A stretch of DNA of 64,000 bases from an uncultured Spirochaetaceae bacterium. Lineage in GTDB: Bacteria > Spirochaetota > Spirochaetia > Sphaerochaetales > Sphaerochaetaceae. The notes under the pieces are model-generated. The model searched no databases and was not told the DNA's origin. It saw only the letters and a list, made by a program, of their open reading frames with translations. The DNA lies in assembly GCA_900315435.1 (NCBI GenBank), contig OMYY01000001.1, positions 62,001 to 126,000 of the forward strand, written 5' to 3'. Shown here one piece after another: positions 2,755 through 38,411 of this stretch. Each line of letters opens with the position of its first letter. Positions within the stretch are counted from its first letter, which is position 1. Made by a program: the position numbers and the translations under genes.

Positions 2755-3084
2755 CCGGTAGGATAGATGATCGCAGGGGGGTCGCCCCCCTGAGGAAAGT
2801 CCGGGCTCCAGAGGACAATGGCGCCGGTTAACGGCCGGTAGCGGTAACGCTCAAGATAGCGCCACAGAAAACAAACCGCCCGCAAGGGTAAGGGTGAAAA
2901 GGTGGGGTAAGAGCCCACCGCGTGGCTGGTGACAGCCATGGCAGGGCAAGCCTCGCCAGGAGCAAGACCAAGTAGTAGTCTGGGTGGTCCGCCTATAGGC
3001 TACGGGTAGGTCGCTTGAAACCACGGGTAACCGTGGTTCTGGATAGATGATCATTGATACAGAACCCGGCTTATTGCCTACCGG
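2755..3084 (+). ncRNA. rnpB: RNase P RNA, bacterial A type
   Basis: Catalytic RNA of RNase P, which removes 5' leaders from tRNA precursors. The P1 helix is visible as CCGGTAGG (2755-2762) pairing with CCTACCGG (3077-3084). The conserved core GAGGAAAGTCCGGGCTCC lies just inside the 5' end and ACAGAACCCGGCTTA near the 3' end. The size of about 330 bases fits the family. It starts 7 bases after a stop codon, and no convincing promoter is visible immediately before it. It may therefore be cut from a longer transcript or use a promoter inside the zinc-ribbon gene. Confidence 0.96.
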
Positions 3085-3109
3085 ATTCTTTTGATAAGGA
3101 TGGAAGAAC

Positions 3110-32938: not shown

Positions 32939-33284
32939 GCTTGGAGAGCGAATCGAGGAGCCGATCCATTTTCTCCCCCTCCTGGAACCCGACATCGCGC
33001 TTGAAAGTCAGCACCGGTGTGTTCTTTGTCCGCATGAAGGCTCCCAGACGCTTTTGGATGAAACCACGGGCACTCTGAAGGGCTTGGACGCATTTCTCCA
33101 CCTTCTCCTCGTCAAAGGGCGCGGAAACATAGACGGTGGCGTAGGCGTTGTCGGTCGAGAGGACCACACGCGTGACACTCGTCAACGAGGAGAGGTCATG
33201 GTGTTTGATATCCCCGTTGACGATCATCATGCTGATGCCTTCGCTGATCTTCGCTTCAAGGCGTTGCTGGCTGTACTGGCTCAC
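32928..33284 (-). CDS. rbfA: ribosome-binding factor A
   Basis: Late 30S maturation and cold-shock factor with a type II KH fold. 118 residues, with RLEAKISEGISMMIVNGDI and DNAYATVYVSAPFDEEKVEKCVQALQSARGFIQ in the expected order. It overlaps the infB stop by 4 bases and sits in the usual infB-rbfA-truB order. Confidence 0.92.
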   Translation of the reverse strand: MSQYSQQRLEAKISEGISMMIVNGDIKHHDLSSLTSVTRVVLSTDNAYATVYVSAPFDEEKVEKCVQALQSARGFIQKRLGAFMRTKNTPVLTFKRDVGFQEGEKMDRLLDSLSKHGN

Positions 33285-36127
33285 TGTCTGGCCTCCAGTT
33301 GCTTCGCTTCCTCGGCTGCCTGCGGAGTCATCGTGTCCTCAAGCTTGCGGGCGACCTCCTGGGTGCCGACGATTTCAAGCACATCTCCGACCTGGAGGTC
33401 CTGGAAGTTCTCCAGACCGATACCGCACTCGAACCCCTCGGCGACTTCTTTGGCGTCGTCCTTGAAGCGCTTCAAGCTGCTGATCTTGATGTTCTCCTTG
33501 TTGATCTGGATGTTGTCGCGGATGACGCGTACCATGGCGTCCCTCGTGACCTTACCGCTGGTGACCATACACCCGGCGATGACACCGACCTTGGGCACCC
33601 TGAAGATGTTGCGCACCTCGGCGGTACCAAGGTCGATCTCCTTGGTGACCGGGCTGAGCATGCCCTCCATGGCCGCCTTCACGTCGTCAACCACATCGTA
33701 GATGATATTGTACTTGCGGATCTCGACCTTCTCCTCGGCAGCCAGTGCCAGCGCTCTGGGCGTCGGTCTGACGTTGAAGCCGATGATCAAGGCATTCGAC
33801 GCGCTCGCCAGCGTCACATCGCTCTCGATGATGGCGCCGGCCGCGGCACGGATGACCGCCAGCCGGATTTCCGGCGTGGAGAGTTTCTCCAAAGACTGCT
33901 GGAGAGCCTCGACGGAACCCTGCAGGTCTCCCTTGATGACCAGGTTGAGGGTCTTGATATCCCCTTCCTTGATCTTCTCGCTCAGGTTGGAGAGGGTCAC
34001 CTTGTTGGTGTTCTCGGTGGCACCCAGTCTTTCCAGTTCCTGGCGCTTGGCGCTGACCATACGGGCCTGTTTCTCGTCCTCGGTGACCTGGAACGGATCG
34101 CCAGCCTTCGGAATGGAGGAAAGACCGATGATCTCGATCGGGGTAGAAGGTCCAGCCTCCTGGATTTTCTGTCCCTTGTCATCGAAGATGGCACGAGCGC
34201 GACCTGCGTAGATTCCGGCGCAGTAATAGTCTCCGACGTGGAGCGTGCCTTTCTGGATCAGGACGGTCGCCACGGTACCGCGGCCCTGCTCGATGCGGGC
34301 CTCGAGAACCCTGCCCTCGGCGCGGCAGTTCGGATTGGCCTTCAGCTCCATCATCTCCGCCTGCAGAAGGATGGTGTCAAGCAAATCGTCGATACCGAGC
34401 TTCTTCAGTGCGGAAATCTTGCAATAGAGGGTCTGGCCGCCCCACTCTTCCGGCATCAAACCGATATCGGAGAGCTGCTGCATGATCCTCTCCGGCTTGG
34501 CGTCGGGGAGATCGCACTTGTTGATGGCGACGATGATGGGTACATTTGCCGCTTTGGCGTGGTCAATGGCCTCGCGGGTCTGCGGCATGACCCCGTCATC
34601 GGCGGCGACAACCAGGACGACGATGTCGGTCACCTGGGCTCCCCGGGCACGCATCATGCTGAACGCGGCATGTCCCGGAGTATCGATGAAGACGATATCG
34701 CCCTTGTCGGGGATATTGACCTTGTAGGCACCAATGTGCTGGGTGATGCCACCATACTCGCCCTCGGCAACGTGGGAGGAACGAATGGCGTCCAGCAGTT
34801 TGGTCTTGCCGTGGTCGACATGGCCCATGACGGTGACAATCGGTGCGCGGGGAACCATATCCTCGGGATTGTCATCGTCATTCTCGATGATCGTCTCGTC
34901 ATACAACGAAACCTTGTGGACCTCGCAGCCGTACTCATTTGCGATGATTGAAGCGGTATCGTAATCGATCTGCTGGTTGATCGTCACCATCATGCCCATC
35001 TTGAAGAGCTTGCTGATGATCTCATTGGCCTTCAGGTTCATCTTCTTGGCCAGATCGGCAACGCTGATCGAGTCCATGATATCGATTTTCTTGGGCACAG
35101 CGGCAAGACGGGCGGCTTCCTGCTCCTTCTTCCGTTGAAGCTGGAATTCAATCTCCTCGTCTTCTGTACGCTTCTCGAATCCCTTCTTGCGGCGGTTGGT
35201 ACCCTTGCCGTTACGGATATCCCTCTGACCGAAGGCATCCTGCGGCCGGCCGGCTCCCTGCCCGCCACCCATCGGACGTCCCCCAACACCGGGTCTTCCG
35301 CCGAAACCGGGGCGATTGCCAAACCCGGGGCGGGGACCGAATGACGGACGATTACCTGTTCCCGGCCGGTTGCCAAAACCGGAACGGGTATTGGCGTTCT
35401 GCCCATATGGGGCGCGGTTGCCATAGCCCTGACGGTCTCCCGTCTGTCCGGCGCGCTGGCCATAGCCAGGCCTCACCTGGCCGCGGTTGTAGGTGCCATA
35501 GTTGTTTCCATACTGGTTGCGGCCGGCTCCAAAGGAACGGTTGTAGCCGTTCCCGTTCTGGCCAGGGCGATATGCCGGCCTGCCGCCGACGATACCCACC
35601 TGTCTCGGTCCGACGGAAGGAACCGTGGAACCCTGCTGGTTGTAGCCATTGTTCTGGTTCTGCCAATCATTGTGGTCTTTGATGGACTGGCCCTGTCCGG
35701 GAACCGGAGGAAGATTGGTGGGACGAATGATGGTCGGACCCGTATGCAACGGGTTGATGATCGTCGGTTGCGCCACGGGAGTCTTGACCACGGGCGTCGG
35801 AGCCTGCTGGGGTTGCCTGACGACAGGCTTCGCCGGTGCAGGCATGGCGGCAGGAGCCGGTTTCGTCACAACGGGAGCAGAGGCGGAAGCCACTGGCGCC
35901 GGTTTTGCCGGCGCAACAGGGACTTCCTGCTTTTCCTGCGGAGCAGGATTCGGCTGGCGTACCACGACCACCTTCTTCTTCTTGATGACGACCTTGCGTT
36001 TTTCCACCGGAGTCTTTTCCTCCGGCTTGGCCTCGGGTTCTGCGGCGACCTGTGGGGCGCCCGTCTTGACCACATGTTTGATCAAGATAACCTGGCTTTG
36101 TTTCTCTTCCGTCTTGTGCTCTTCCAT
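33281..36127 (-). CDS. infB: translation initiation factor IF-2
   Basis: GTPase that brings fMet-tRNA to the 30S subunit. In 948 residues: a Lys/Glu- then Pro/Ala-rich N-terminus, and a Gly/Arg/Asn/Tyr-rich segment at about residues 182-302. An IF2N helical domain follows ([20 protein letters not shown]), then the GTPase domain ([26 protein letters not shown] and INKCDLP) and the C-terminal domains. The ATG at 36127 follows AGAGGA by 4 bases; an in-frame TTG at 36151 overlapping the nusA stop is an alternative. IF-2 matters for any leaderless mRNA in this genome. Confidence 0.96.
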
Positions 36128-36147
36128 TCTTTCCTCTACTCTCTCCG

Positions 36148-37695
36148 TCAAACTTCCTCAAAAGAAAGACCGGTACCGCAGTGCGGGCATACCTTCATGT
36201 CCGGGGTAACGGGCTGTCCGCAGTTCGGACAGACGTACTCGGTCTCTTCATTCTCATCTTCCACGATATCGATGTTCTCGCTGATCACCTTCTTGATCTC
36301 GGCGATATCTTCGGCGCTCAGGTCGGTCATGGCAGCCTGGTCTTCCGGCGTCAGGCTGATGAAATCCTCGACGCTGTAGATATCATGGAACTGCAACTTC
36401 TTCAGCAGCTTCTCGTCAAGCGGCAGATCCGCAAGAGGAACCTCGTCCTCGGGAACACCGCTGTTGTCTGCGGCAGCCGGCTCGGCGGAAATCCCGGCAG
36501 CACCGGTCTGGGCTGGCTGCTGGACGTCCGTCTCGCCCTGTTCCTCTCCCCCGAAGATGCTCTCGGCTTTCTCTCGGGCAGCCTGCGAGATATCCATCTC
36601 GTCGAACTCTTCCTGGGTCTTGACCTCGATCATCCAGTCGCACAGCTTGCTGGCAAGGCGGACGTTGACACCCTGCTTGCCGATGGCGAGGGCCTGCTGG
36701 CTCTTGTCGACGATGGCGACCGCCTGGAAGACGTTCTTGTCAATCACGACGATGTCCTTCACCTCGGCCGGTGCCAAGGCGTTGCGGATGTAGTTGACCG
36801 GATTGGAGTCGTAACGGACGATGTCGATGCGTTCTCCCTCGATCTCGTCCATGATGGTCTTGATCCGGTTCCCCTGCAGACCGATGCAGGCGCCGATGGG
36901 GTCGATATTCTCATTGCGGCTGACAACGGCGACTTTGGTCCTCATGCCGGCCATGCGGACCACCTTGACGATGTCGATCTGTTGCTGCTGGATTTCAGGA
37001 ATCTGCAGCTCGAACAGCTTGCGTACAAGCTCGGAGTGGGTTCGGGAAAGGATGACATGTACCCCGTGGTCGTCTTCCTTGACAGACTCAACATAGCAGA
37101 GGATCGAGTCGTTGACGCCGTACCCATCGTAGTTCTCCCTCGGGCTCTGGTTCCGGTTGGGGAGCAGTCCTTCAATCGTGCCGATGTTGACCCAGATGTC
37201 GCCGTTGGGCATCTGACGCAGGAAATAGCCCTTGATCAACTGGCCCTCTTTATTCTTGTACTCGTTGTACTGCTTGTCATTGGTGATGCTGCGGAAGGAC
37301 TTGCGGGCATCGGTCCGGGCCTGCTGGATGCTCTGGCGCTTCAAATTCTTCGGGTTGAAAGGAATCAGCAACTCGTCCCCGATGTCGCACTGCGGATCAA
37401 GTCGTCTGGCATCCTCAAGGGAAATCTCGATGGGATCGATCACGCCGTATTGCTCGCCGTCGACGACGGTCTTCTGGACAAAGACATCGATGTTGTCATG
37501 GGCGTCATTCCAACGGACGACACAGTTCTCGTAAGGCTTGTACTGCTGCTTGTACGCGTCCTTGATGATGCTCTCGACGGTACTGAATACCAGGTCCTCA
37601 GAGATACCTTTTTCTTCCATCAATGCCTTAATGGCGCTTCCCATCGTTTCCATGGGCTCAACCGGTGCGGTCTTGGTGCTTTTTCTACCTGCCAT
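36148..37695 (-). CDS. nusA: transcription termination/antitermination factor NusA with C-terminal zinc ribbon
   Basis: RNA polymerase-binding factor controlling pausing, termination and rRNA antitermination. The 515 residues have the N-terminal RNAP-binding domain, an S1 domain (KGYFLRQMPNGDIWVNIG), KH domains (IGACIGLQGNRIKTIMDEI and AIGKQGVNVRLASKLCDW), an acidic linker and a helix-hairpin-helix-like repeat. At the end is a short zinc ribbon with CPNC and CPHC 10 residues apart, not part of standard NusA. The start at 37695 overlaps rimP by 11 bases. A frame open 54 codons upstream is overlap with rimP. Confidence 0.96.
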   Translation of the reverse strand: MAGRKSTKTAPVEPMETMGSAIKALMEEKGISEDLVFSTVESIIKDAYKQQYKPYENCVVRWNDAHDNIDVFVQKTVVDGEQYGVIDPIEISLEDARRLDPQCDIGDELLIPFNPKNLKRQSIQQARTDARKSFRSITNDKQYNEYKNKEGQLIKGYFLRQMPNGDIWVNIGTIEGLLPNRNQSPRENYDGYGVNDSILCYVESVKEDDHGVHVILSRTHSELVRKLFELQIPEIQQQQIDIVKVVRMAGMRTKVAVVSRNENIDPIGACIGLQGNRIKTIMDEIEGERIDIVRYDSNPVNYIRNALAPAEVKDIVVIDKNVFQAVAIVDKSQQALAIGKQGVNVRLASKLCDWMIEVKTQEEFDEMDISQAAREKAESIFGGEEQGETDVQQPAQTGAAGISAEPAAADNSGVPEDEVPLADLPLDEKLLKKLQFHDIYSVEDFISLTPEDQAAMTDLSAEDIAEIKKVISENIDIVEDENEETEYVCPNCGQPVTPDMKVCPHCGTGLSFEEV

Positions 37696-38188
37696 CTTTC
37701 CAATCCTCCTCGAGATACTCCAGCTTCGCTTTCTGGATCTGCGCGATGCCGAGCTCAAGATGCTCCAAGGTCTCCTTGCCCTCCCCGACACGGACTTGGT
37801 CGAGGGATAGCTTTTCGCCGTCGAATCCGGCAATTTTGCCGGTAAGCCAGGAGGCACGACCTGTATCGTACACCTTTACGGACCTCCCTGTGAACAGCTC
37901 GAACTCATGCGCGTCCTTGATGGTCCGAAGCATACCCGGGGTCTCGACGGTCAGGAAAACATCCCTGAGCGGTCCAGCCTCCTCCATCGCGACCGGATAG
38001 ATCGCATGGTATGCGGCATCGCAATCCTTGCTGGCCGCATCCCCGCCAATGCGGGTGATTGCGACTTCGAGCTCGACATTCCTACCACGGTCGGCCTGAC
38101 GGATCTCGACAATCGCCAGACCAAGCTCGCGCACCAGCGGCTCATACAGCACAAACAGCGGATCTGAAGTGATATTCGTCTTTTCCAT
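37685..38188 (-). CDS. rimP: ribosome maturation factor RimP
   Basis: A 167-residue 30S assembly factor. It has the N-terminal alpha/beta domain (YEPLVRELGLAIVEIRQ), VETPGMLRTIKDAHEFELFTG (the LxSPGxxRxL-F-RFxG region of the family) and a C-terminal Sm-like barrel (KVYDTGRASWLTGKIAGFDG). First gene of rimP-nusA-infB-rbfA-truB-ribF-rpsO-pnp. No Shine-Dalgarno is visible; a terminator-like U tract ends 16 bases before the ATG. Confidence 0.92.
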   Translation of the reverse strand: MEKTNITSDPLFVLYEPLVRELGLAIVEIRQADRGRNVELEVAITRIGGDAASKDCDAAYHAIYPVAMEEAGPLRDVFLTVETPGMLRTIKDAHEFELFTGRSVKVYDTGRASWLTGKIAGFDGEKLSLDQVRVGEGKETLEHLELGIAQIQKAKLEYLEEDWKDGR

Positions 38189-38203
38189 AATTTCGATACA
38201 CTA

Positions 38204-38234
38204 TAAAAAAAGGATCCGCTTTTCAGCGATCCTT
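38204..38234 (-). terminator. terminator-like hairpin in the rimP leader (candidate attenuator)
   Basis: On the minus strand AAGGATCGCT pairs with AGCGGATCCTT (one bulged base) around a GAAA loop, followed by seven T (38205-38211). It lies between the rimP promoter and the rimP ATG, so RNA polymerase must read through it to express the operon. Confidence 0.75.
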
Positions 38235-38246
38235 CAACCATGTGAG

Positions 38247-38276
38247 ATTCTAGAAGGCTTGCGACATCCTTGTCAA
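38247..38276 (-). promoter_or_regulatory. rimP-nusA operon promoter
   Basis: On the minus strand TTGACA (38271-38276, consensus), an 18-base spacer and TAGAAT (38247-38252). The start site would be near 38240, about 6 bases before the hairpin. Confidence 0.7.
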
Positions 38277-38411
38277 CCACATCTAATGATCCTGTAAGCA
38301 TTTTTCTCCACCACCCACGATGGTTCGGCGCGTGCAGGCAAAAGATCGGAAAGAGATGCTATACATGTGTAAACATATCGGTGCCGTCAGGCAGGGGCAC
38401 CGGAAAACAAG

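Follow-up and report, generated by a model that had tools for sequence, protein, structure and literature searches.

Conservation across spirochaetes strongly supports the presence of a promoter-proximal attenuator in the leader of the rimP-nusA-infB operon, and we think it probable that this element is a transcription attenuator whose readthrough is set by NusA, which would cap the operon. Judged from its distribution in sequences, the combination of promoter and hairpin is no chance occurrence, since it is unique in the window (the whole 64-kb stretch of DNA that we analyzed) and stands before nearly every Spirochaetia rimP. The features are listed in Table 1.

Table 1. Predicted elements of the rimP leader and genes of the operon in the window
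Feature	Positions	Strand	Basis
Sigma-70-type promoter, TTGACA-N18-TAGAAT	38247..38276	-	Score of 11/12; hexamers invariant in sister genome
Predicted 5' leader of rimP mRNA, ~53 nt, without Shine-Dalgarno	38189..38241	-	Sequence reading
Terminator-type hairpin, AAGGATCGCT-GAAA-AGCGGATCCTT, one 3'-side bulge	38210..38234	-	Fold, family covariation, covariance model
Seven-T tract, then purine-T (AT) at 38204-38203	38205..38211	-	Direct reading; leader comparison
rimP, first operon gene	37685..38188	-	Pfam RimP_N, 24.8 bits (cut-off 22.7)
nusA (open reading frame)	36148..37857	-	Pfam NusA_N, NusA KH_5, C-terminal zinc ribbon
infB (IF-2), third operon gene	33281..36151	-	Pfam IF-2, GTP_EFTU, IF2_N

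On the minus strand, the -35 box (38276-38271) and the -10 box (38252-38247) are read directly with a spacer of 18, and the promoter that they form scores highest of 11 promoter-like sites in the 15 kb scanned. The initial annotation had described this promoter followed by a hairpin with seven T residues, and direct reading bears this out, with the refinement that, in the fold, a single base bulges from the 3' arm of the stem (AAGGATC...GATCCTT), whose final T overlaps the T run. Transcription probably starts near A38241 or G38239, as deduced from the position of the -10 box; with the start so placed, the leader comes to ~53 nt (~52 bases in the initial annotation), and the terminated leader RNA is predicted to be ~36 nt, from 38241 to about 38206. 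The rimP ATG does lie 16 nt past the T run, as had been claimed, and no GGAG- or AGGA-type Shine-Dalgarno is found between the two.

The leader has a folding energy of -14.6 kcal/mol (z = -2.8; 1 of 200 shuffles was equally good), and the hairpin alone, followed by an intact T7, reaches -13.5 kcal/mol. On both strands of the window, no other hairpin and T run has, in the 45 nt before it, a promoter with a score over 8/12. In the window genus, the hairpin is predicted to begin after ~7 nt of RNA, and a separate antiterminator is absent (across the class, this absence was judged by eye only). Since ~7 nt leave no room for a separate antiterminator, a riboswitch aptamer or a leader peptide, control would have to act via the polymerase and its factors.

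By Pfam, the genes that follow the leader are rimP, nusA and infB. Homologues of rimP were found in 54 of the 61 genomes searched, with nusA directly after rimP in the loci examined, and the genome is that of a spirochaete, its nearest named relatives being metagenome-assembled genomes labelled Spirochaetales bacterium and Sphaerochaeta. In the window, the C-terminal SH3 family of RimP scores just below its Pfam cut-off, the NusA protein probably starts near 37656, based on alignment, and a 223-nt gap separates rimP from an upstream transglutaminase-like gene on the same strand. NusA ends in a zinc ribbon (CPNCG...CPHCG), encoded at ~36150-36240 in the 3' end of nusA; profile coverage suggests that the class and the rimP-poor family f36 have this ribbon and that most other classes of the phylum lack it. 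Elsewhere in the window, positions 2755-3088 correspond to bacterial RNase P RNA class A (RF00010, 300 bits).

The promoter and the hairpin are nearly invariant in a sister genome, whose RimP is 91% identical to that of the window. Identity is 12/12 for the -35 and -10 boxes and 29/30 for the hairpin and T run (41/42 together), with values of 13/18 for the promoter spacer and 119/179 for the upstream DNA, and the sole change in the hairpin is at the bulged base. We also note that the 23 bases abutting the -35 box (38299-38277) are identical in the sister genome, with DNA farther upstream 66% identical; this block is a possible operator or UP element, and it is not evident in a more distant congener (L003). 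Two other readings of this region were tried and rejected: a leader peptide encoded by an upstream frame that runs through the leader (ATG at 38301, with a Shine-Dalgarno), since the sister genome does not keep that ATG, and a programmed frameshift at the T run that would lead into rimP, since the homologues of RimP start no earlier than the ATG at 38188.

The initial annotation had proposed a comparison of the leader across relatives, and we carried this out within the family, the class and the phylum. We observed the architecture of promoter, hairpin and T tract at 50/50 loci inspected, of which 30 came from the search for relatives (mostly the same family) and 20 were further loci of the class. 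At all 50, a hairpin and T tract lie close upstream of rimP, nearly always preceded by an equivalent TTGAC...TAnnnT promoter; a few of these promoters, including those at L022, L028 and L034, were assigned by eye. In a held-out sample of the phylum, scored by the single criterion of a promoter of at least 8/12, a hairpin and T5, 39 of 60 loci passed, compared to 24 of 600 dinucleotide shuffles (4%). Within the class Spirochaetia, 20 of 21 held-out loci passed, the sole exception being L091 in a 1.1-Mb Spirochaetia genome (G107), where the hairpin is missing upstream of rimP; beyond the class, visual inspection still shows a hairpin with a T tract at several of the loci that failed (L108-L110 among them). 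Similarly, 65 of the 66 named Spirochaetia loci with sufficient upstream DNA passed, a set that partially overlaps the 50 loci inspected.

The stem is maintained as a paired structure. The seven stem pairs are 92.9% paired in 46 aligned leaders, and changes on both sides of a pair, that is, compensatory changes, occur in 45 cells, compared to 13.2 ± 4.9 in shuffled alignments; slid controls, which favor the structure somewhat because it was defined from the same sequences, gave no more than 10. A covariance model finds the rimP leader of the window as its best match genome-wide, with 29.9 bits, the runner-up in the window reaching 14.2; since the model was trained on rows that included the window sequence, this score speaks for specificity to rimP more than for independent recognition. 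Among the held-out loci, the same model recovers the leader in many genomes outside the training set.

Finer features of the leader are also shared, based on 146 distinct leaders. The distance from the -10 box to the hairpin is narrowly spread, with its mode at 26 nt and most values at 22-33 nt; in the window genus it is 8-12 nt (8-11 nt by the fold of our script). The T run is T5-T10 in 146/146 leaders, in a search that itself demanded T5. A purine directly follows the T run in 142/146 leaders, compared to 53/100 control terminators drawn from the same loci, and a T comes next in 112/146, compared to 24/100 (Fisher P < 1e-15, as a guide only because the sequences are related). Of the near-set leaders, 22/31 have a bulge on the 3' side, compared to 22/115 of the others, and the CG pairs at the top of the stem are conserved in sequence past what pairing needs. 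In B. subtilis, distal interruptions of the U tract and weak hairpins are the marks of NusA- and NusG-dependent terminators (PMC8060035), and on this view the bulge and the purine-T that follows the U tract might both make termination depend on such factors.

If the element works as we think probable, RNA polymerase would start near 38241 and the hairpin would form within about 30 nt, followed by the U tract, at which some polymerases would terminate and release the short RNA, with the remaining polymerases going on to transcribe rimP-nusA-infB. When bound to the polymerase, NusA would promote hairpin-dependent pausing and termination, such that high NusA would result in less readthrough and hence in negative feedback on nusA. 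We infer actual termination at this leader and its dependence on NusA from E. coli, B. subtilis and Streptococcus agalactiae, and sensing of NusA by the leader is the best hypothesis by analogy with the first two. We also considered that, in the window genus, the choice between stopping and going might be made before sigma, which competes with NusA for the polymerase, has left it, such that the attenuator would read the hand-over from sigma to NusA rather than the level of NusA in mid-elongation, with the conserved purine-T as part of the signal. The hairpin begins ~7 nt after the start and would form almost upon emergence of the RNA, so the choice may fall while sigma is bound; nevertheless, we regard the hand-over reading as a long shot.

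The sequence conserved beyond the demands of pairing, at the CG pairs of the stem top and in the purine-T, would also fit a real attenuator with a regulator other than NusA, be it RimP, NusG, a cold-shock protein, nucleotide supply or transcription-translation status, in which case conservation of the stem would reflect another binding partner. NusG, for instance, also stimulates termination at suboptimal B. subtilis terminators (PMC8060035). However, NusA autoregulation is established for the rimP-nusA-infB operon in two other phyla (PMC6511841, PMC12288461), and we consider a different regulator unlikely. Since the genomes examined have rimP and nusA side by side, no natural split separates these hypotheses; a search for genomes with the two genes apart, which would tell RimP from NusA as the regulator, gave none that was usable, and in the rimP-poor family f36, the covariance-model match that was checked (G153) sits downstream of nusA, not upstream.

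The leader might also terminate without NusA, as its hairpin is strong and its T7 uninterrupted, and a strong near-consensus promoter on a housekeeping operon would be compatible with a constitutive partial terminator that passes a fixed fraction of polymerases and trims promoter strength without regulation. A weaker promoter should have the same effect at lower cost, however, and conservation of both strong promoter and terminator across the class would favor a regulated step, which makes an unregulated terminator quite improbable in our judgment. We give even less credence, indeed very little, to a hairpin that acts as a 5' stabilizer of the mRNA, as a translation-control element or as a terminator for upstream transcripts. 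The hairpin is the 5'-most structure of the mRNA and rimP lacks a Shine-Dalgarno here, but a stabilizer does not need the T tract that is present in all 146 leaders (T5 being required by the search), and in relatives, a GGAG Shine-Dalgarno falls after the T run, outside the hairpin. In nearly all genomes, moreover, a promoter lies between the upstream gene and the hairpin, and we rejected the hairpin as terminator of the transglutaminase-like gene because of this conserved promoter in between.

The rimP-leader is the most ubiquitous predicted attenuator, with NusA as the best candidate regulator (Naville and Gautheret 2010, PMC2965389); the main text of that paper makes no mention of spirochaetes. 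The spirochaete element resembles the rimP-leader (PMC2965389; Rfam RF01770) in its terminator hairpin and U tract directly upstream of rimP-nusA-infB, in the absence of a visible antiterminator, in a G-rich 5' arm and a C-rich 3' arm, in a variable distance to the rimP start and in a rimP-specific stem sequence. It differs in that the published GGGc...gCCC core is mostly replaced: the core is found in 6/146 leaders, 82/146 have RRYCG...CGRYY instead, and the stem in the window lacks it, which counts against reading the element as an attenuator of the known kind. RF01770 has no match at E ≤ 10 in this region of the window and scores over its cut-off in 0/61 genomes. In the literature searched, we found no reports of a spirochaete rimP-leader and no RNA data on one, and neither rimP nor infB is named in the main text of the paper on RNA-end mapping in Borrelia (PMC10319736).

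The initial annotation had called this leader a minimal version of the known feedback loop. Indeed, the short distance from start to hairpin is unusual and fits the window genus, but an equally short case has already been published: in S. agalactiae, RNA-seq of the 5' UTR of gbs0413-gbs0418 (rimP-nusA-infB) revealed a short RNA that ends 31 nt past the start, and NusA feedback was suggested (PMC4448216). There too, an intrinsic terminator lies very near the start (PMC4448216), although in another phylum and with termination observed rather than predicted. In B. subtilis, entry of transcription into the operon is controlled through intrinsic termination in the 5' leader, which NusA stimulates (reviewed in PMC12288461); that leader is ~180 nt (PMC2965389), compared to ~53 nt here, and its dependence on NusA has been shown, whereas here such dependence is predicted. 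The E. coli metY-rimP-nusA-infB operon likewise has terminators upstream of rimP, two in number, and is under NusA feedback, itself a deduction (PMC6511841), but where the spirochaete leader has one promoter and one hairpin, it also has several promoters, the tRNA gene metY and RNase III sites. With a natural attenuator this short (~36 nt of RNA), the spirochaete leader is suited to testing the action of NusA on terminators, and it would open NusA feedback to testing in a phylum whose termination factors have hardly been studied. We conclude that it is well supported that the spirochaete leader belongs to the known rimP-leader kind, as an unsurprising new branch with its own sequence signature, which carries the rimP-nusA attenuator into nearly all Spirochaetia and into part of the remaining phylum sample under a signature that Rfam misses.
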